A DNA stretch of 64,000 nt from Cycloclasticus sp. (GTDB lineage Bacteria > Pseudomonadota > Gammaproteobacteria > Methylococcales > Cycloclasticaceae): positions 1,240,001 to 1,304,000 of the forward strand of contig JBFLJU010000001.1 of assembly GCA_040743155.1 (NCBI GenBank). Direction: 5' to 3'. Made by a program: the position numbers and the translations under genes. This document shows, in pieces, positions 2,213 to 12,891 of the stretch (position 1 is its first letter; each line of letters starts with the position of its first letter). The notes below the pieces were generated by a model that was not told the DNA's origin, did not search any database, and saw nothing but the letters and a program-made list of their open reading frames with translations.

Positions 2213-3607
2213 ATGATATCCACACAAACTTTTACACAACTCGGCAAAACGCTTAAAGGCGTTATGCTTGGTTCTGCAGTTGCTCTAAGCATCGGCATGG
2301 CGGCACTACCGCAACAAGTGCAAGCGGATGAAACGTGCATGTCTCCTTACATGGCTAAAATTGTTGGTCAAGAAGACTACGTTTATGTATGGACTTTAGG
2401 CGTTGTGGGTGTTGGCGACGAACAAGACAAATTAGTGACGCTTTCCGTTAATCCGCAAGATAAAGACTACGGAAAAGTTATCAACAGTGTGTCTGTTGGC
2501 GGCCGTAACGAAGCGCATCACTCAGGTTTTACCGATGACCGTAAATACCTTTGGGCTGGTGGTTTAGATACAAGCAAAATTTTCATTTTTGATGTGCATA
2601 CAAACCCTTCAAAACCAACGTTGCATAAAGTTATTGAAAACTTTGTTGCCGACAGTGGCGGCGTTGTAGGCCCACATACAACCTACGCCTTGCCTGGCAC
2701 TATGATGATCACTGGCTTATCTAATAATAAAGATCACGGCGGCCGCACTGCATTAGTTGAATATACCAACGCTGGTGATTTTGTTGCAACACATTGGATG
2801 CCAACAGACGAAAACCTAAACGGTGCTAAAAAATCCGGTCAATTTGCTGATGGTTATGGCTACGACATACGCGCACTTCCTCGCCGGAACATGATGATTA
2901 CTTCTTCTTTCACCGGTTGGAATAACTACATGATGAATTTTGGCAAATTAGTTGCCGACCCTGAAGCGATGAAGCGAATGGGGAACACTGTTGTGATCTG
3001 GGATTTGCACACAAAACAACCTAAACAAGTATTAGATGTACCAGGTGCACCTTTAGAACTTCGTTGCGCATGGGGAGTCAATAAGAACTATTGCTTTACG
3101 ACAACCGCGTTAACTTCAAGACTTTGGTTAATTTATGAAGATAACAAAGGCGTATGGCATGCAAAAGATGTTGCCGCTATTGGCGATGCCTCTAAAATCC
3201 CTCTTCCTGTCGATATCTCTATCACAAGTGATGACAGCAAGTTATGGGTTAACACTTTAATGGACGGCAAGACTCGTTTGTTTGATATTTCAGACCCACA
3301 TGCACCAAAAGTTGTTTTTGAAGAGCAAATTGGTAAGCAAGTAAACATGGTTTCTTCAAGCTGGGACGGCAAGCGTTTGTACTTCACATCATCTGTGTTG
3401 TCTAACTGGGACAAAAAAGGTGAGGATGAAGATCAGTTCTTCCGTGCCTATGATTGGGACGGTAAGAAACTAACAAAAACAATGGACATTGATTTCCTTG
3501 AAGCAGGATATGGTTACCCACATCAAATGCGCTTTGGTTCAAATGCTCTTTATGCAAAAGCACCTGTGAAAAGTGCTGAGAAGATCATTGCATCATTGTC
3601 TAAATAA
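2213..3607 (+). CDS. mtoX: methanethiol oxidase (SBP56 / selenium-binding protein family)
   Basis: This 464-residue protein belongs to the SBP56 family, whose bacterial periplasmic members are copper-containing methanethiol oxidases. They convert methanethiol with oxygen to formaldehyde, hydrogen sulfide and hydrogen peroxide. It has an N-terminal signal peptide ending in VQA at residue 38, followed by the family start DETCMSPYM, and family-like segments such as EAHHSGF, GPHTTYALPG and GGRTALVEY. The ATG at 2213 is preceded by AGAGG at a good distance. The next genes encode a SCO1-type copper chaperone and a MauG-like dihaem protein, the set described around mtoX in Hyphomicrobium, and then formaldehyde dehydrogenase. 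That context favours methanethiol oxidase over an unassigned selenium-binding role. A terminator follows directly, so mtoX may be made in excess of its partners. Substrate is inferred from family and neighbours. Confidence 0.88.
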   Translation: MISTQTFTQLGKTLKGVMLGSAVALSIGMAALPQQVQADETCMSPYMAKIVGQEDYVYVWTLGVVGVGDEQDKLVTLSVNPQDKDYGKVINSVSVGGRNEAHHSGFTDDRKYLWAGGLDTSKIFIFDVHTNPSKPTLHKVIENFVADSGGVVGPHTTYALPGTMMITGLSNNKDHGGRTALVEYTNAGDFVATHWMPTDENLNGAKKSGQFADGYGYDIRALPRRNMMITSSFTGWNNYMMNFGKLVADPEAMKRMGNTVVIWDLHTKQPKQVLDVPGAPLELRCAWGVNKNYCFTTTALTSRLWLIYEDNKGVWHAKDVAAIGDASKIPLPVDISITSDDSKLWVNTLMDGKTRLFDISDPHAPKVVFEEQIGKQVNMVSSSWDGKRLYFTSSVLSNWDKKGEDEDQFFRAYDWDGKKLTKTMDIDFLEAGYGYPHQMRFGSNALYAKAPVKSAEKIIASLSK

Positions 3608-3621
3608 ATATTTAATTATTA

Positions 3622-3650
3622 TAAGGGCTGCCTTCGGGTGGCCCTTTTTT
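3622..3650 (+). terminator. intrinsic terminator or attenuator after mtoX
   Basis: A GC-rich hairpin (AGGGCTGCC, loop TTCG, GGTGGCCCT, with one G-T pair) is followed by a run of six T. It lies 15 bases after the mtoX stop and directly before the SCO1-like gene. Because the next genes have little room for a promoter of their own, it may act as a partial terminator that lowers expression of the downstream maturation genes. Confidence 0.8.
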
Positions 3651-3664
3651 ATTCGGCCACGCTT

Positions 3665-4330
3665 ATGAAAATTATCACTTTCTTACTGTTCCTAATCACG
3701 TCACTCAACTGCTTTGCAAGTGAGGACACAGCAACACCTATTTTATTAGCTCCTGGCTACGGTCCACTAACATTTGAAGCCCCTAAAGCCGGTAGCTATA
3801 CATTACCTATTTATGGCGAAGCAAGTAATGGAAAGGTCATTGACAGCCTTGGCTCACACCAAACACTCGATGAACTGATGGGCGACAAAGTTGTTTTACT
3901 TAGCTTTATTTACGCAACCTGTAACGATGTAAACGGCTGTCCTTTATCCACATCTGTATTTCACAAAATTAAACGACGCTTAACCAAAGCAGGTCTTAAA
4001 AACGATTTACGCCTTATTACCTTAAGCTTTGACCCAAAACACGATACACCCGATATGATGGCTAACTACGCCAAGTCATTAGAAACAAAACAAACCGATT
4101 GGCGTTTTTTAACCACGGCATCTCAAAAAGAATTACGGCCTATTCTTGAAGGTTACAACCAGACCGTTCAACAAAAATATAATGACGCCGGGGAGTCTAC
4201 AGGTGGTTTTTCACATACCCTCCGTGTGTACCTAATTGATAGGCATAAAAAAATTAGAAAAATATACAGCGTTGGCTTTTTACACCCCGATATTTTAATT
4301 AATGATGTGAAAACACTCACGTTAGAATAA
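3665..4330 (+). CDS. SCO1/SenC-family copper chaperone of the mto cluster
   Basis: A thioredoxin-fold SCO1/SenC protein of 221 residues, exported by a signal peptide (residues 1-18, ending NCFA). SCO proteins deliver copper to periplasmic or membrane copper enzymes; here the natural client is the methanethiol oxidase encoded just upstream. The metal-binding cysteines are C86 and C92 in CNDVNGC, a CX5C spacing instead of the usual CX3C, and the conserved histidine appears in GGFSHTLR. An upstream GTG at 3638 is in frame but lies inside the mtoX terminator and would spoil the signal peptide, so ATG 3665 is chosen. The MauG-like gene begins 5 bases after the stop, implying one transcript. Confidence 0.87.
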   Translation: MKIITFLLFLITSLNCFASEDTATPILLAPGYGPLTFEAPKAGSYTLPIYGEASNGKVIDSLGSHQTLDELMGDKVVLLSFIYATCNDVNGCPLSTSVFHKIKRRLTKAGLKNDLRLITLSFDPKHDTPDMMANYAKSLETKQTDWRFLTTASQKELRPILEGYNQTVQQKYNDAGESTGGFSHTLRVYLIDRHKKIRKIYSVGFLHPDILINDVKTLTLE

Positions 4331-4335
4331 GGCTT

Positions 4336-5592
4336 ATGAAAAATGCTGGCCTTTTACTGTTACTTCTTATCGTTTCCTTCGGCTGCTTTGCCGACGATAA
4401 GAGCGCCAAGCCAAGTTTACACGGCGCAGGTGACGATAAAACAGGTTACAGCACCAAAAGTTATACGACCAATAGCAAGGCACTTACCACCCGGGTCGGC
4501 AAAAAAGCTGATTTAATACGCTTCATTGAAAAGCCTCCTCTTGGCTTACCGCCAACCCCTGTTCCAAGTAATAACCCCATCACCAAAGAGAAAATAGTTT
4601 TAGGTCGAAAATTATTTTTCGATCGTCGATTATCACTCAATAACACGTTCTCTTGCGCCATGTGTCATGTGCCAGAACAAGGCTTTAGCCATAACGAATT
4701 GGCAACAGCCGTTGGTATAGAGGGCCGCTCAGGTCGTAGAAATAGCCCAACTATTTTTAATGTTGCTTACGCTAAAATACTATTCCATGATGGGCGTGAA
4801 GACAACTTAGAGCAACAAATTTGGGGCCCACTATTAGCACATAATGAAATGGGCAACCCATCTGTCGCTGTCGTCTTGCGCAAAATTCGCTCACTCAGTG
4901 ATTATCATGGCCTATTTGAAGCTACTTTCAATAAACCACTTAGTATGGAAACACTGGGCATGGCTTTTGCCAGCTATCAGCGCAGCTTAAATTCTGCCAA
5001 TAGCCCGTTTGACCAATGGTACTTTGGGCATAAAGATACAGCTGTTAATGCATCCGTAAAAAATGGCTTCCAACTATTCAAAGGCAAAGCAAAATGCATC
5101 GCTTGCCATAATGTTGGTGAAAATAGTGCTTTGTTTACCGACCACAAGCTGCACAACACGGGGCATGGTTATCAGATCTCCATGCACCAACGGCCGAAGA
5201 AACAAAAAATCCTCGTTGCCCCCGGGCAATATATTGAAATTGATTCAGCTCTCTTTGATTCGGTTTCTGAAAAAAAGCCTAACGATGTTGGTTTATATGA
5301 AGTAACCGAAAACCCCAAAGATCGCTGGAAATATAAAACGCCAACATTAAGAAACATTGCCTTAACCGCGCCCTATATGCACGATGGCGCGTTTAAAACA
5401 CTGGAAGAAGTGATCAATTTTTATAACCAAGGCGGCATTAAGAATGCTGACTTAGATCCACTAATAAAGCCCCTTGATTTAACCGCACATGAGAAAATAG
5501 ACTTACTCGCATTTTTAAACAGCCTGACAGGTTCAAATGTAGACGCACTAATTTCAGACGCATTTGCCGCCCCCGTTGGCGACACTCAATAA
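4336..5592 (+). CDS. MauG / dihaem cytochrome c peroxidase family protein
   Basis: A periplasmic dihaem c-type protein of 418 residues with an N-terminal signal peptide (ends FGCFA). The two haem sites are visible: CAMCH at residues 107-111 and CIACH at 254-258. The C-terminal part has the family segment TPTLRNIALTAPYMHDGAF. Members either reduce hydrogen peroxide or, like MauG, oxidise protein side chains to build a cofactor. In known mtoX clusters a mauG homologue sits in the same place, so a role in methanethiol oxidase maturation, or in removing the peroxide it makes, is likely; the sequence alone does not decide. It follows the SCO1-like gene by 5 bases. The cysteine in the signal region does not make a good lipobox. 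Confidence 0.88.
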   Translation: MKNAGLLLLLLIVSFGCFADDKSAKPSLHGAGDDKTGYSTKSYTTNSKALTTRVGKKADLIRFIEKPPLGLPPTPVPSNNPITKEKIVLGRKLFFDRRLSLNNTFSCAMCHVPEQGFSHNELATAVGIEGRSGRRNSPTIFNVAYAKILFHDGREDNLEQQIWGPLLAHNEMGNPSVAVVLRKIRSLSDYHGLFEATFNKPLSMETLGMAFASYQRSLNSANSPFDQWYFGHKDTAVNASVKNGFQLFKGKAKCIACHNVGENSALFTDHKLHNTGHGYQISMHQRPKKQKILVAPGQYIEIDSALFDSVSEKKPNDVGLYEVTENPKDRWKYKTPTLRNIALTAPYMHDGAFKTLEEVINFYNQGGIKNADLDPLIKPLDLTAHEKIDLLAFLNSLTGSNVDALISDAFAAPVGDTQ

Positions 5593-5612
5593 AACTGATA
5601 CCCATACATTAA

Positions 5613-6731
<1,119 letters not shown>

Positions 6732-7124: not shown

Positions 7125-7937
7125 CTATGCTTTGCGCCAAAAAAACAAGCTCGCCTTTTTGCTTTTTTCAATAGTTGGCTTTGTATAATCTTTAATGTGA
7201 CGATCAACAAGGTCCCTAATACTTAGGAACTCTGCAACAGAACGTGTTCTCGACAGTTGTTTTCGTAGTTTATCGGAAACATCAACTTTTCTTATTGAGC
7301 CGCTAACCATTTCAACTGACTCTATAAACGCTTTTGGCTGTTCCTTTACTAAACTGTCGAACTCCAATGAATAACTCTCAATCAATTCTGCTGAAATAAC
7401 CACTTCAAAATCTCCCGTGGTACGTGCTGGACTTGCACCCGTTGGAGGCCCTAGGCGCACTTTTCTTATTTGCGCCGAATAGAGCTCCATTTCCTTCCTT
7501 GTGATTAAAGGCGGCAATAACCTCATTAGTTTAAGCAGGTTTTCCTTACCTTTAATACTTGGGTCTTCTGGTTCTTCACTAACAACACCACTTGTTCGAC
7601 TGACACTACTCGGCACCACTTTTTGCCTTAATCCCTCATCAAGGGCTTTTCTTTTTATATCTCTAGTAGTAGTCGTTTCATCTGCCGTACCTTTAGGCGA
7701 GTCAACAATGACGTAGCCGGAGTGCTCAGCAACCTTGGCAATCATTTTATTAGAAATTGACACAACCTCACCCAAGCCTAAACCTTCGTAGCCAGGCTTT
7801 TCGATAATTTGCATTAATTTTCTTTTTGTTTCTATATAACTTTTCTGATCAAACTCAAGTGTTTTAACAGCCGCATCAAGGATGTTCGTTACAACGGCTT
7901 TCTTCTCATCATAAAATTTAATTTCACTAATACCCAT
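7125..7937 (-). CDS. hypothetical protein, 270 residues
   Basis: I do not recognise this protein. It has no signal peptide and no membrane segment, is rich in charged residues and looks mainly helical. A low-complexity hinge at about residues 85-130 (threonine-, serine- and glutamate-rich) separates an N-terminal helical part from a C-terminal part that ends in a basic tail (KKASLFFWRKA). The ATG at 7937 has only a weak ribosome site. The gene stands alone between frmA and the pmo cluster with about 390 non-coding bases on each side, which hints at an insertion or independent acquisition, but no mobile-element traces are visible. It could be a regulator or a phage-type cargo gene; nothing supports either. 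Confidence 0.6.
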   Translation of the reverse strand: MGISEIKFYDEKKAVVTNILDAAVKTLEFDQKSYIETKRKLMQIIEKPGYEGLGLGEVVSISNKMIAKVAEHSGYVIVDSPKGTADETTTTRDIKRKALDEGLRQKVVPSSVSRTSGVVSEEPEDPSIKGKENLLKLMRLLPPLITRKEMELYSAQIRKVRLGPPTGASPARTTGDFEVVISAELIESYSLEFDSLVKEQPKAFIESVEMVSGSIRKVDVSDKLRKQLSRTRSVAEFLSIRDLVDRHIKDYTKPTIEKSKKASLFFWRKA

Positions 7938-8321: not shown

Positions 8322-8915
8322 TTAAGCTTTATCTCTATACTTTCTTGCCAATAAATAGACAAATAACCCAAAGGCAGCAAGGTAAAATACCCAAACATTC
8401 TTATTTAAAAAACCCACGTCGCCACGTTTACTTATATCTTTGACTGAAAAGTTAAAGGAGCCCGTTTTATGCCGCCTTTCTTGATGGTTATGCTTTTCAG
8501 GTTGTAACAATCCAACAGAGACTCGGTATTGTCCTTCAGTAATACCTATAAGCTCTAGATTTGCACTCCCTGATGTATACCTCTCAGCTTTTGTCGAAAT
8601 ATAATCAACAAATTGTTCCCCTTCTTTTCTTTCAACGCGAATTTCAATAGGGATATTACGCAAGCTTTCATCAATAAAGTCTAAAACCATCAATGTTTTA
8701 GATATTGTAGGAATTTGCCTGCAATGCTCTTCTTGTTGTGTCTCTATCGGTTGATAGGCCGTAAAATGGATAGTATGTCCTTCAGTACGAAATACACACT
8801 GGTCACGGTCTATTGTTACACCACCGTGCGCAAAGACATTAGGCGTGAAAATTAATATGACAAGGCTGCATAAAACAGCCCTGCCATACATTTTTATCAA
8901 CTTATTACTTAACAA
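8322..8915 (-). CDS. small exported, C-terminally anchored protein downstream of pmoB; predicted N-terminal-histidine copper-protein candidate
   Basis: A 197-residue protein with a signal peptide expected to be cut after VFA (residue 29), leaving His30 as the first mature residue, exactly as in PmoB. A C-terminal membrane helix (about 174-190) followed by basic residues anchors it, so the body faces the periplasm. Cys40, His50 (in IHFTAYQ) and Cys65 are conserved with the paralogue at 12334-12891 at almost the same spacing. The gene follows pmoB after 2 bases, so it is co-transcribed. Position and topology recall PmoD/AmoD, the membrane-anchored copper proteins of methane and ammonia oxidisers, but the usual PmoD sequence pattern is not evident. 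A copper-loading or assembly role is inferred. Confidence 0.82.
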   Translation of the reverse strand: MLSNKLIKMYGRAVLCSLVILIFTPNVFAHGGVTIDRDQCVFRTEGHTIHFTAYQPIETQQEEHCRQIPTISKTLMVLDFIDESLRNIPIEIRVERKEGEQFVDYISTKAERYTSGSANLELIGITEGQYRVSVGLLQPEKHNHQERRHKTGSFNFSVKDISKRGDVGFLNKNVWVFYLAAFGLFVYLLARKYRDKA

Positions 8916-8917
8916 AA

Positions 8918-10168
8918 TTAATCTATAAATGTAGGTAAGATTTGCCCGTATACCTCACTAATAAGCCTTTTACCGTTACTGTCATAAAAGAATAAAAGCC
9001 CACCATAACTACTATCTGGATCATTAAGCAAACTACTGAGTCGCTCAACTTCCCAGGCAACATCTGTCGCATTAATTAGGATTCTTTTAGTTTCACCCGG
9101 CATGATGGGTGAAAGATCACTAATTACAAGCGAACTATCTGCCACTAATTCATCTGGGTAACCTTCATCTACAGCAGCAACAGCCACCGGTAAATTTTGG
9201 TTAATAAACCTAAGGTTAGCAGTCATAAACTCACCAAGCTCTATTGGTAAATCATGGTTATTTGTAACTTCAACATCCATAGTCACTGTTCTGCCGGGTA
9301 GGTAGTATTCAGCTCTTTTGTTTTTAACAACAACCTTGCCTTTACCTAGGTCCGGCAAAGGATCTGTTTCAGCCACACCACCTTGCAATGGAATTGTATA
9401 TTGATACGCTTCACGTGTAAGACTGTTAGCAAAAATCAACATCCCAATAATAATGACAATTAACGATGCGCCTACTTTCATATCTGTAGCAGTTATCAAT
9501 TTAGACCACTGCTCATCTTTAACAAGCAAATAGCGTTCAATCAATAAAGGACGCCTTATCCACCAAATTAGCCAAAAAATAGCGACCGCAACCCAAATCA
9601 AATGCCATTTGTATACGTTACCCGTAGCATATGTACCTAAGTTTTCGATTGTTTGGCCTGTTCTGGTTTCAATAGAATAGACGAAGTCATCTGCATCACC
9701 TGCAATAGTTACCCATATCCCTGGGCCAATTAAACCACCTGCCGATTGGACATTGAACATAGGGTGAACGTGGTGACGTCCCGGAATACGTCCTTTTAAG
9801 ACAACTTCAAAGTCATAAAAACGTCCGAGTTCAACACCCGTTGATTGAATCTGAGGTACTTCATTTAGATAACTACTCACTCTTACAAAAACCGGACCTG
9901 GTGTAGCGTTTGCTAAAAACACCGTATCTGGTTCATTGATTGACTGAGGCCAGCGCGAGAAAAAGTGCACCCGCCCTTTTAAGGTAATTTCATCATTAAC
10001 ATTGATGGTTGCACCATTGTCTACAGACCATTTAACGTCGTACCACTGTAATGTTTTCATCCTTAAAAAAGGTTCTTGGTTACGCTCACCATGCGCATAC
10101 AGAACAGTTGATACCGCCATCAAGACAAATAATAAAACTGCCTTTCTTACTAGATTTACAGTTTGCAT
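8918..10168 (-). CDS. pmoB: copper membrane monooxygenase subunit B (PmoB/AmoB type)
   Basis: Periplasmic cupredoxin-domain subunit of a particulate methane/ammonia/hydrocarbon monooxygenase. The 416-residue length is normal. The signal peptide ends at LYA (residue 25), making His26 the mature N-terminus. With His133 and His135 in RHHVHPMF this gives the three histidines of the CuB site. Two cupredoxin-like parts are separated by membrane helices at about 185-205 and 232-252. It follows pmoA by 4 bases and precedes the small anchored protein by 2. The order pmoC-pmoA-pmoB is that of methane and short-alkane enzymes rather than pxmABC. The natural substrate cannot be decided from sequence alone. 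Confidence 0.93.
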   Translation of the reverse strand: MQTVNLVRKAVLLFVLMAVSTVLYAHGERNQEPFLRMKTLQWYDVKWSVDNGATINVNDEITLKGRVHFFSRWPQSINEPDTVFLANATPGPVFVRVSSYLNEVPQIQSTGVELGRFYDFEVVLKGRIPGRHHVHPMFNVQSAGGLIGPGIWVTIAGDADDFVYSIETRTGQTIENLGTYATGNVYKWHLIWVAVAIFWLIWWIRRPLLIERYLLVKDEQWSKLITATDMKVGASLIVIIIGMLIFANSLTREAYQYTIPLQGGVAETDPLPDLGKGKVVVKNKRAEYYLPGRTVTMDVEVTNNHDLPIELGEFMTANLRFINQNLPVAVAAVDEGYPDELVADSSLVISDLSPIMPGETKRILINATDVAWEVERLSSLLNDPDSSYGGLLFFYDSNGKRLISEVYGQILPTFID

Positions 10169-10172
10169 CTTA

Positions 10173-10979
10173 TTATTTCTCCTCAGCCACGTCGTCTAGA
10201 CCAACAAAGCCTTTTAAACGGTTTGGCACACTTCCCAGGTTTGTAAGCCATGCGCCAATTTTCCACCAAACGTAATACAGAACCATGCATACAAAGGCAG
10301 AGAAGAAGGTTGAAATCAACGTAGACTCACCACCAAATGTACGCAACGTACCTCGTTCAATCATTCTTAAATACTCTGGTGTTGCTGTACGAGTAAATGA
10401 ATAACCGATCAAATCAGCCACATTAACGACTTGATCCATATGAATAACAGGCACATGGTACGGTGCAAGAATTGGCCAGTTTGCAGGTGCAAACGCAAAC
10501 GCAACTGAACTACCACCAAATATGGCTGTTATAAATAAATTTCTTGAAAGTAAATAGACTAAATCCATTAACATTAAGCCAGGAATCACGATTGAAGGCC
10601 AAATCATGCTCATTGGAAAATATGTCCATAAATGAAAGCTAAAATAACGGCTTGCCCATTCACCCGCCATTAAACACAGTCCGCATAATGTTCCTGAAAT
10701 AGGTAATCCGAACTTCTCCATTAGCGGATAAGATAAGGCCGCCGGAATAACAATCAATAACATAGGTGTTAATGTCACCCAGTTCATCCTATCTTTCCAG
10801 TCCACCCAAAAATCCCAGTCACCCACTGTCAACATAAAATGTATGTGGAACGCTGCAACAATTGCAAAAAACAAAATACCAACGACAATCCTATCTAAAC
10901 CACGCGCGATCCTTGCAGCATCTGAATTCGACGTTCTAACCGCCTTCAACAGTAATGCTTCATTTGCTTCTAAAGCCAT
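10173..10979 (-). CDS. pmoA: copper membrane monooxygenase subunit A (PmoA/AmoA type)
   Basis: Integral membrane subunit A, 268 residues, slightly longer than the roughly 250 usual in methanotrophs. It carries the segment GDWDFWVDWKDR, the site of the common pmoA/amoA primer, as well as ANWPILAPYHVPV and TPEYLRMIERGTLRTFG near the C-terminus, all typical of the family. Six to seven membrane helices are evident. The ATG is preceded by AGAGGTTGAG. The start lies 86 bases after pmoC and a strong hairpin sits in that gap. Close resemblance to methane- and hydrocarbon-oxidising PmoA is clear, but assignment to methane against ethane or propane would need a phylogeny. Confidence 0.94.
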   Translation of the reverse strand: MALEANEALLLKAVRTSNSDAARIARGLDRIVVGILFFAIVAAFHIHFMLTVGDWDFWVDWKDRMNWVTLTPMLLIVIPAALSYPLMEKFGLPISGTLCGLCLMAGEWASRYFSFHLWTYFPMSMIWPSIVIPGLMLMDLVYLLSRNLFITAIFGGSSVAFAFAPANWPILAPYHVPVIHMDQVVNVADLIGYSFTRTATPEYLRMIERGTLRTFGGESTLISTFFSAFVCMVLYYVWWKIGAWLTNLGSVPNRLKGFVGLDDVAEEK

Positions 10980-11011
10980 AACTCAACCTCTGTAATTTTT
11001 ATAAAAAATTA

Positions 11012-11049
11012 CCCTAATTTTATCTATAAGTGACTAAATAAAATTAGGG
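11012..11049 (-). promoter_or_regulatory. 12-bp perfect hairpin between pmoC and pmoA
   Basis: Arms 11012-11023 and 11038-11049 are perfectly complementary (CCCTAATTTTAT on the transcript, 14-base loop) and the 3' arm is followed by a T-rich stretch. In the pmoC-pmoA transcript it would form a stable stem about 30 bases before the pmoA start. It may be a partial terminator or an RNA processing/stability element that sets the ratio of PmoC to PmoA and PmoB; comparable hairpins are known in amoC-amoA spacers. Confidence 0.75.
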
Positions 11050-11065
11050 CTGAACTCAAACCTTC

Positions 11066-11842
11066 TTACGATGTTAACTCACCTTTTTCGTTTACTACTC
11101 TTGGTAGCAAATCAATGATGTATTTGATTACCTGAACTAACACACCACCTAATGCAATAATTGACCAACCGAAAAATACAAAGCCCCAGTGTAAAGGCAC
11201 CGTAAAGTATTCTTCCATTAACCAAAAAGCATGGCCCCATTCGTTGTACCCAACTGTTGGTAACAACATAAATGGGCCACAAACCACTAATACCAACGCA
11301 ATTGAAATCTTTTCAGCAAAATACGGTAAGCGAGTGATTGCATAAAAAAACAAGCTAAAGCCAATAATGATGAAAATAGGCATGCACATATAAAAAAGGA
11401 ATATGTGGCTCGGTGTGAAACTGGTGTCCCTAACTACTGTTTGATGCCAAGAAGCATCTTGCTCGGCATACAAGCTTCCTGCAAAATAAAATGCAAATGC
11501 ATAAACCATTAACATAGTTACCCAAACTAATAGCCTATTAAGCTCTTCCCTTGGTTTTAGGTCACGAAGGTGCTTATCGCGTGTCACCCAAAAATAACCA
11601 ACAAAGCCAAAAAACGCCGTTACTTCAGCAATAAGCTCACCCCAAAAAACGGTCATCCAATACTTATCAAACATCGGATCTGTGGCATCAAGCCCATAAT
11701 CCCATGCAGCCCATTGCTGGTACCAACGCGCTGTTCCCATAATAGCTATGAGTATAAGAAACCCAATAGCCATAGGCTTCAAATTAAACTTAAAAGCTTC
11801 TATTTTTTGATCATCTACAACATCTTCTTGTGTTATTGCCAT
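11066..11842 (-). CDS. pmoC: copper membrane monooxygenase subunit C (PmoC/AmoC type)
   Basis: Integral membrane subunit C, 258 residues with about six membrane helices. The metal ligands that form the CuC/CuD region are intact: Asp129, His133 and His146, with the exact D-X3-H-X12-H spacing of Methylococcus PmoC (Asp156, His160, His173). The ATG at 11842 follows GTGGAG. It is the first gene of the pmoCAB transcript. A terminator 74 bases upstream separates it from the preceding gene, so its promoter should lie in 11843-11915, although no strong consensus was seen there. The intact ligands argue for an active enzyme. Confidence 0.93.
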   Translation of the reverse strand: MAITQEDVVDDQKIEAFKFNLKPMAIGFLILIAIMGTARWYQQWAAWDYGLDATDPMFDKYWMTVFWGELIAEVTAFFGFVGYFWVTRDKHLRDLKPREELNRLLVWVTMLMVYAFAFYFAGSLYAEQDASWHQTVVRDTSFTPSHIFLFYMCMPIFIIIGFSLFFYAITRLPYFAEKISIALVLVVCGPFMLLPTVGYNEWGHAFWLMEEYFTVPLHWGFVFFGWSIIALGGVLVQVIKYIIDLLPRVVNEKGELTS

Positions 11843-11915
11843 TAGAATTCTCCACTTTAATTTATATGCACCCTATTCTGATCCTACACTACTAATCTTT
11901 TCTTATACGGCTGAC

Positions 11916-11941
11916 AAAAAACGCGAGGCCCTAAGCCTCGC
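11916..11941 (-). terminator. intrinsic terminator upstream of pmoC
   Basis: On the minus strand a perfect 7-bp GC-rich stem (GCGAGGC / GCCTCGC, loop of 5) is followed by G and six T. It would stop transcripts coming from the 12334-12891 gene before pmoC, making pmoCAB an independent transcription unit. Confidence 0.85.
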
Positions 11942-12158
11942 TAGTGAGGAGCACAACCAATCTACCTAACAGTTGTTATAATATAATAACCTTTCCCCTT
12001 TCTATAAATCAATAGGAGCACGGATTAATCTTAAAAAAGACTAAATGAGTGACTTTAATTTCAGTGATAGCCCATCATTTGCAATACTAAAAGAAAGAAT
12101 TAAAATACGGGCATTAACTCACCAACTACATTACCCAGCCACCGGAAAGCCAGCCCCT

Positions 12159-12236
12159 TTAAAGACTAATCAAAAGTTCTTTAAATTTATCAGAAGGTAT
12201 AGGCTTACTAAAATAATAACCTTGTAAAATTTCACA
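12159..12236 (-). pseudogene. C-terminal remnant of an EAL-domain gene
   Basis: The minus strand reads CEILQGYYFSKPIPSDKF and a few more residues to a TAA, a near-perfect match to the end of EAL phosphodiesterase domains (QGYxFSxPxP). An in-frame TAG lies directly before the cysteine codon, and no further EAL sequence was found upstream in any frame. Only about 25 codons remain of what was once a cyclic-di-GMP gene. It is a scar of deletion or of insertion of the neighbouring pmo genes. Confidence 0.75.
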
Positions 12237-12333
12237 CTAATATTCTTTAAACATCAGCATTTGCTCCTTAATATTAAAATGATTTAGATCAAAATTTGAA
12301 TCGATCTTAGAAAAAATACCAGCCTAATTACAG

Positions 12334-12891
12334 TCATTGGTCTTGCTCTTTATTCACTTTTTTCACATACCAAATATAGAGCCCACTTAAAATCAATAAC
12401 GCTATCAGCAGCCACTTGATAACTTGTTGAGTGCTTGAAGGTTCCCTACTATTCGGACCAAGCTCACCCACATAAAAATCAAACTCCCTTGTCGTATCAT
12501 GCCCGTCTTTATTCAAAAACATGACCTTGCCATGATACTTTCCCTTTTGCCTTGGCATAAAATTCAATAGCATTGAGCCTTGAGGGTACAATTTAAGTGG
12601 TAACGCAGCTAGTGGTTCAAGACTTTCCCCATCCATGTATCCTATTGAAAAAGAAAATGGAAAGCCCTTCGAATCTTCTTCCATAAAATCTAGAACAATC
12701 GTTGTTTCAACTAAATCTGGTGCGCTTTGGCAAAACACCTCGCCTTTATGCGTTGAAGCTTGATAAGCTGTTAGGTGAATACCTCGGCCTTCAGCTAACT
12801 TCAATGTGCAAGCTCCATGCTTATTATCGATATTACCGTGCGCAAACACATAATTACTTACAAACAAAAGTACTACTAAGCTTGTTCTCAT
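12334..12891 (-). CDS. paralogue of the pmoB-adjacent anchored protein; predicted N-terminal-histidine copper-protein candidate
   Basis: A 185-residue exported protein clearly related to the one at 8322-8915. The signal peptide should be cut after VFA (residue 17), leaving His18 first. Cys28, His39 (in IHLTAYQ) and Cys54 match the paralogue, with one residue inserted between the first cysteine and the histidine; VLDF and a following acidic pair are also shared. A C-terminal helix (about 158-176) and a basic tail anchor it. It lies upstream of pmoC on the same strand but behind its own terminator, so it can be regulated separately. A TATAAT on the minus strand at 12963-12968 and a TGCAC-TTG-GTGCA palindrome at 12935-12947 lie upstream. 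Function unknown; copper handling for Pmo is inferred. Confidence 0.8.
   Translation of the reverse strand: MRTSLVVLLFVSNYVFAHGNIDNKHGACTLKLAEGRGIHLTAYQASTHKGEVFCQSAPDLVETTIVLDFMEEDSKGFPFSFSIGYMDGESLEPLAALPLKLYPQGSMLLNFMPRQKGKYHGKVMFLNKDGHDTTREFDFYVGELGPNSREPSSTQQVIKWLLIALLILSGLYIWYVKKVNKEQDQ

Follow-up and report, generated by a model that had tools for sequence, protein, structure and literature searches.

Two exported proteins encoded beside the pmoCAB genes of a copper membrane monooxygenase (CuMMO) in Cycloclasticus sp., here called PmoD-a and PmoD-b, are, on the evidence of sequence profiles and structure models, members of PmoD/AmoD, a CuMMO-linked family of copper proteins published in 2018 (PMC6189053). 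Their genes lie in a stretch of 64,000 nucleotides (the window; assembly GCA_040743155.1, contig JBFLJU010000001.1, positions 1,240,001 to 1,304,000). What looks to be new here, as far as can be judged from sequence, is a predicted N-terminal histidine of the mature PmoD/AmoD/AmoE proteins (His1): after curation, it is found at the signal-peptidase site, usually ten residues before the first invariant cysteine, in 307 of 367 sequences and in 73 of 95 clusters. We consider it an even chance that PmoD carries a copper site based on His1 that serves the copper loading of CuMMOs. In PMC6189053, copper loading and a redox-partner function are two of three roles left open for PmoD.

Family membership and core motif

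The assignment to PmoD is made because a sequence profile and AlphaFold2 models searched with Foldseek agree on the PmoD entry 6cpd. Against 6cpd, phmmer yielded E-values of 6.1e-7 for PmoD-a and 0.057 for PmoD-b, and the family profile yielded 4.8e-29; 6cpd is also the top Foldseek match of both models (8.6e-10 for PmoD-a and 7.7e-10 for PmoD-b), which have a mean predicted local distance difference test score (pLDDT) of 87.3 and 88.8, respectively, and the VIA Z score of the PmoD-a model against 6cpd is 13.7. With so clear a relative by phmmer, profile and Foldseek, a new family is ruled out.

According to PMC6189053, the family is exported, occurs with CuMMOs and has two invariant cysteines, a cupredoxin domain and a C-terminal helix. 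For both window proteins, AlphaFold2 and Foldseek predict a cupredoxin-like periplasmic domain as in 6cpd, and both models end in a C-terminal helix; the signal peptide is recognized by rule as a hydrophobic stretch followed by VFA/H (slash, predicted cleavage), cleavage sites having been set by an [AV]-x-A/H rule together with conservation. Both open reading frames given in the preliminary description of this DNA are present on the minus strand, and their paralogy is borne out by 31% identity over 147 amino acids (E 2e-21). The motifs listed there are likewise found in both: VFA/HG, Cys11, IHFTAYQ or IHLTAYQ, a second cysteine as the tenth residue past the glutamine, VLDF and the C-terminal helix. 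The predicted mature ends are HGGVTIDRDQC...IHFTAYQ(x9)C for PmoD-a and HGNIDNKHGAC...IHLTAYQ(x9)C for PmoD-b; the two cysteines (Cys11/Cys36 and Cys11/Cys37, respectively) are strictly conserved and occupy invariant alignment columns. The corresponding features are:

8322..8915, minus strand: PmoD-a, in-operon PmoD of the Cx9HxnC class (open reading frame; matches 6cpd by phmmer, Foldseek and VIA)
8829..8915, minus strand: PmoD-a signal peptide, predicted end VFA/H (sequence; [AV]-x-A/H pattern common to homologues)
8826..8828, minus strand: PmoD-a predicted mature His1 codon (His kept in 73 of 95 clusters)
8796..8798, minus strand: PmoD-a Cys11 codon, first invariant Cys (aligned with 6cpd Cys41 via L003)
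8766..8768, minus strand: PmoD-a core His21 codon (aligned with CuA ligand His51 of 6cpd)
8721..8723, minus strand: PmoD-a Cys36 codon, second invariant Cys (aligned with 6cpd Cys65)
8328..8411, minus strand: PmoD-a C-terminal membrane helix, mature residues 140-167 (DSSP on AlphaFold2 model)
12334..12891, minus strand: PmoD-b, separate PmoD, Cx10HxnC (open reading frame; Foldseek to 6cpd; PmoD-a paralogue)
12838..12840, minus strand: PmoD-b predicted mature His1 codon (sequence)
12808..12810, minus strand: PmoD-b Cys11 codon (sequence)
12775..12777, minus strand: PmoD-b core His22 codon (sequence)
12730..12732, minus strand: PmoD-b Cys37 codon (sequence)
12340..12435, minus strand: PmoD-b C-terminal membrane helix, mature residues 136-167 (DSSP on AlphaFold2 model)

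The core spacing is Cx9H in PmoD-a and Cx10H in PmoD-b, and the methionine of the Cx7MxHxnC motif of CuA sites occurs in neither. In PMC6189053, the CuA site of a homologue, with ligands including Cys41, Met49 and His51, forms at the homodimer interface, only with Cx7MxHxnC, and a Met-to-Ala exchange abolishes it; with these spacings and no Met ligand, a CuA site is unlikely in the window proteins. This bears on the possibility that PmoD is a redox partner, which would pass electrons to the monooxygenase via a dinuclear CuA-like site formed between the two subunits of a homodimer, with no role of its own for His1: the core histidine does align with His51 and Cys11, via L003, with Cys41, but the missing methionine renders this function improbable for the two proteins.

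Neither window PmoD has a Pfam or NCBIfam match above cut-off, nor a CopC or Monooxygenase_B match in Pfam at E up to 1. Across 42 aligned PmoD/AmoD/AmoE members, the matches to these databases are scattered and weak, the best ones (Pfam 0.0022, NCBIfam 7.3e-5) being to cell-wall-anchor models, and no PmoD/AmoD model is among them, although the family has been in print since 2018. PmoD relatives were found neither on viral contigs nor in a single-protein scan of genome contigs.

The N-terminal histidine and its possible role

The homologue set comprises 367 unique PmoD/AmoD/AmoE sequences in 95 clusters at 70% identity; all 367 carry the first invariant cysteine, 12 profile-matching rows that lacked one or other cysteine of the pair having been excluded. 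By the profile column, His1 was initially counted in 311 of 367 sequences and 76 of 95 clusters; three rows assigned by the hidden Markov model (L193, L221, L269:6747) were then removed by hand, and comammox QHGH rows were scored as lacking His1. His1 is carried by 34 of 36 sequences in the window's genus, 63 of 65 in other Methylococcales, 79 of 80 in the Nitrosomonas-like family and 109 of 143 in named loci (Nitrosomonas, Nitrosospira, comammox Nitrospira and others). Broken down by core class, the clusters with His1 number 37 of 37 that have a core His but lack Met, 15 of 18 with Cx7MxH and 12 of 13 with Cx8MH. Within 72 His1 clusters the first cysteine is at position 11 in 65 and at position 12 in seven, and an alanine precedes the histidine at -1 in 67; in N. 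europaea, the predicted mature ends are HGGLSLAEDMC for AmoD and HGRVSLEEDNC for AmoE. Five of the six PmoD paralogues of the window's own genome are predicted to start with HGG or HGN, and the sixth, adjoining pmoB copy 3, with QKAG. In comammox Nitrospira, an AmoD-like protein (L236, L271, L283, L300 and others) has the predicted mature end QHGH or QHFH, and several of these proteins carry a tyrosine in place of the core histidine.

The presence of His1 is associated with that of the core histidine (uncurated clusters, 64/12 versus 4/15, Fisher p 3e-7), and among 147 variable columns the core histidine and the tyrosine four residues further on rank first (z 12.3 each), followed by Asp9, two residues before the cysteine (z 9.3); both the test and the ranking were made on clusters from which relatedness had not been removed. 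In PMC10952591, a mature N-terminal histidine is a copper ligand in site B of particulate methane monooxygenase (pMMO), in CopC and in lytic polysaccharide monooxygenases (LPMOs). Owing to its wide conservation and its statistical tie to the core histidine, His1 is a better lead as a putative copper ligand than the preliminary description could tell. Papers pairing PmoD with "histidine brace" were not found in a search outside which lay subscription papers and the supplement of PMC6189053; for "N-terminal histidine" and PmoD, PMC6189053, where the passage concerns the canonical CuA motif, was the only paper among the matches listed, subscription papers again lying outside the search.

The conserved HG might instead be a feature of processing or of the signal peptide rather than a ligand: it adjoins the cleavage site, it is kept in some classes without a core histidine, the models are of low confidence at the N-terminus, and in a small and crude control, made up of 64 other proteins near the loci for which export is predicted, a histidine at +1 is not rare (16 proteins). 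The signal peptide is, however, variable before position -3, yet H1, G2, D9 and C11 are fixed, and the presence of His1 is linked to residues at a distance of 20 and 24 positions. Moreover, two of the 16 control proteins resemble PmoB/AmoB and nine CopC, by eye and with no profile, so that the control appears enriched in copper proteins. We therefore hold a mere processing signal to be unlikely.

Several observations weigh against a His1-based copper site. The alpha family, whose set is nearest to exhaustive whereas the other sets consist mainly of best-scoring matches, has the lowest share of His1 (22 of 43). Nine of the 27 clusters without a core histidine still carry His1, which is therefore independent of this partner there. 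A link between the two histidines was not demonstrable after tree correction, a comparison with four to six independent pairs and thus underpowered. AlphaFold2 does not place His1 confidently: residues 1-8 of PmoD-b have a pLDDT below 50, and residues 1-10 of PmoD-a a mean of 74. The best-proven copper site of a PmoD, that of the CuA type, does without His1, and in PMC6189053 a Cx9H PmoD bound copper without formation of CuA. One exception to the presence of His1 is the CRYSTALLISED protein, encoded in G337 (L109) and by eye identical to the 6cpd stretch: the predicted mature end of this CuA-type PmoD is A/EGGAGPEAMSMGNMC (A/EGG), without a histidine, and all six of the alpha CuA-motif sequences listed lack His1 as well. 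In the 6cpd chain two residues precede G38, and PMC6189053 reports a vector-derived Ser-Met at the N-terminus of all its constructs; the native N-terminus was therefore not free in that work, whichever class was studied.

A His1-based copper site could operate in the following manner: by sequence and prediction, PmoD-a and PmoD-b are exported proteins with one cupredoxin-like periplasmic domain, anchored by the C-terminal helix in the membrane of the monooxygenase. Cleavage at A/H very probably leaves a free N-terminal histidine as residue 1, whose amine and imidazole, together with core His21 or His22 and possibly Asp9, Cys11 or Cys36, may form a mononuclear copper site. PmoD may then take up periplasmic copper and pass it to the CuMMO, presumably to PmoB, which is, as had been pointed out before, also predicted to begin with a histidine once mature (HGE), or to PmoC. 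PmoD-a would serve the PmoCAB encoded beside it, and PmoD-b would be a separate copy retained for CuMMO copper supply in general; the CuA form of alpha-proteobacterial methanotrophs, without His1, would be a derived variant. More tentatively, and with rather less than even probability, a free N-terminal histidine plus the core histidine, in a histidine-brace-like or mixed His/Cys arrangement within a cupredoxin, may be the main copper site of PmoD/AmoD and load methane, ammonia and hydrocarbon monooxygenases alike; the CuA site would then be a derived alpha-proteobacterial exception, and the general site would have gone unseen since constructs removed or capped the N-terminus.

Association with copper monooxygenases and the window locus

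Among 398 genomes sampled phylum-wide, including the window's own, PmoD occurs in exactly the three with pmoB and in none of the 395 without it. The CuMMO specificity first proposed for the two proteins is thus supported, while the family itself had already been published. Of 18 genomes of the window's genus, 13 have pmoB and 14 PmoD: PmoD is present in all 13 pmoB-positive genomes and in one of five pmoB-negative ones (Fisher p 0.0016), the latter (G068) being a draft that is 73% complete, and the one-contig genome G019 has neither gene. In the alpha family, five of 99 genomes have pmoB and six PmoD, including all five with pmoB. The order is less clear-cut: of its 151 genomes, 129 have pmoB and 146 PmoD, which is found in all 129 with pmoB, but also in 17 of the 22 pmoB-negative ones, each of these 17 a draft of about 60 or more contigs; a PmoA match occurs in one of the 22. 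Similarly, all 61 genomes of the Nitrosomonas-like family have AmoD and 39 have amoB. As all 14 genomes with eight or fewer contigs do contain amoB, we infer that the gaps reflect assembly loss of repeated operons. Draft genomes with PmoD/AmoD and no detected pmoB/amoB weigh against a perfect CuMMO link. Poor conservation of the histidine and cysteines and CuMMO-less hosts, both named at the outset as evidence that would speak against the proposal, were mostly not encountered, the exceptions being these drafts and the His1 frequency of the alpha family.

In the genus, a PmoD-a-like gene directly follows pmoB in seven loci (L001, L029, L047, L057-L060). Of the eight loci with a PmoD-b-like gene, seven have nhaD next to it; no nhaD was seen in L054, a stretch that begins at a contig end. 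A neighbouring pmoC occurs only in L002 and L047. The remaining six PmoD-b loci show no pmoCAB within the stretch examined, and of PmoD-a they hold a remnant or nothing: PmoD-a has changed frame twice in L053 (G047, 3072-3626) and is decayed and frameshifted in L051 (G059, 1832-2366), PmoD-b being intact in both. In one of these genomes, G056, pmoCAB together with intact PmoD-a is located on a different contig (L050, L059). This synteny, together with the decay of PmoD-a where no pmoCAB is nearby, suggests that PmoD-a, unlike PmoD-b, is dedicated to the enzyme encoded next to it, in line with the earlier suggestion that one copy is tied to the enzyme and one is separate. An obligate pair of both is ruled out, since both are intact in one locus only in L047 and in the window (L001, L002).

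The decay of PmoD-a also fits an assembly or stabilizing factor that binds PmoABC through its membrane helix and domain, copper being secondary and the cysteine pair serving as a disulfide, as formed by Cys41 and Cys65 in 6cpd (PMC6189053); both models contain a membrane helix. Such a factor would leave the conservation of the N-terminal and core histidines unexplained, and we give it little weight. The persistence of PmoD-b without local pmoCAB, the frequent proximity of Cx9H PmoDs to copC (PMC6189053) and the pmoB-negative drafts of the order with PmoD would suit periplasmic copper storage or resistance in general, not dedicated to the monooxygenase. The absence of PmoD from all phylum-wide genomes without pmoB and from four of the five pmoB-negative genomes of the genus makes this very improbable, and copper loading of CuMMOs remains the preferred function.

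The window's genome is a single contig of 2,563,313 bases and contains three copies of pmoB along with six genes for PmoD. On the minus strand of the locus, the gene order is PmoD-b, pmoC, pmoA, pmoB and PmoD-a; the remaining features are:

8918..10168, minus strand: pmoB, predicted mature N-terminus HGE (PF04744, 3.1e-136)
10173..10979, minus strand: pmoA (PF02461, 5.2e-89)
11066..11842, minus strand: pmoC (PF04896, 8.1e-85)
11923..11941 (within 11915-11945), minus strand: terminator-like hairpin in the gap between PmoD-b and pmoC (-14.6 kcal/mol, z -3.8)

The previously noted distance of two bases between pmoB and PmoD-a holds with a TTG start at 8915 and becomes 26 bases with an in-frame ATG at 8891; the orthologue in L029 has an ATG at seemingly the same residue as the TTG. 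PmoD-b had been ascribed its own terminator: the hairpin exists but lies nearer to pmoC, about 80 bases before this gene and about 390 past the PmoD-b stop, and could be a leader attenuator instead of the end of the PmoD-b transcript. The hairpin at the operon end 3' of PmoD-a (8309-8294) is weak (z -0.5). In the gap between pmoC and pmoA (11005-11055, minus strand), a 16-pair hairpin (-19 kcal/mol, z -7.1) is possibly an RNA-processing or attenuation element. Adjoining the operon, consecutive plus-strand genes at 2213-6731 encode an MtoX methanethiol oxidase (NF052453, 1.3e-222), a SCO1/SenC protein, a MauG/MbnH-like di-haem protein and an S-(hydroxymethyl)glutathione dehydrogenase, probably a cluster for methanethiol-to-formaldehyde oxidation. 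A 270-residue protein encoded at 7125-7937 (minus strand) has no Pfam match above cut-off; several genomes of the genus carry whole or partial relatives of it next to PmoD-a or PmoD-b.

Relation to known systems and significance

The closest known system is PmoD/AmoD/AmoE itself (Fisher et al. 2018, PMC6189053; 6cpd), with which the window proteins share the signal peptide, two cysteines, the cupredoxin domain, the C-terminal helix, the CuMMO link and the place past pmoB. In contrast to the 6cpd protein, which begins A/EGG (L109), they lack the CuA methionine and have a predicted mature N-terminal histidine. With histidine-brace sites (PmoB site B, CopC, LPMO, PmoF1) they would share a free N-terminal histidine after cleavage and a second conserved histidine; they differ in two conserved cysteines close by and in the lack of a CopC or Monooxygenase_B match in Pfam. 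H. pylori CrdA (9ll4, 9ll2), which has a copper-related domain, is similar in fold (VIA Z 8.8 to PmoD-a, Foldseek 3.6e-4 to PmoD-b), but at about 9-14% identity such a Z can mean a common fold only. The phmo literature (PMC12510462) likewise describes several divergent CuMMO copies per genome and lists a D component, its topic in the available excerpt being substrates (pentane, butane) and not the D protein.

According to PMC6189053, most of the activity of pMMO is lost on isolation, and no pure preparation of ammonia monooxygenase has ever been active; a standing explanation is that components for copper loading or electron delivery are missing. If most PmoD/AmoD/AmoE proteins do have a native His1 ligand, the Ser-Met-capped proteins, which may include classes reported not to form CuA, were assayed without that ligand; the His1 question would thus bear on methane oxidation and nitrification alike.

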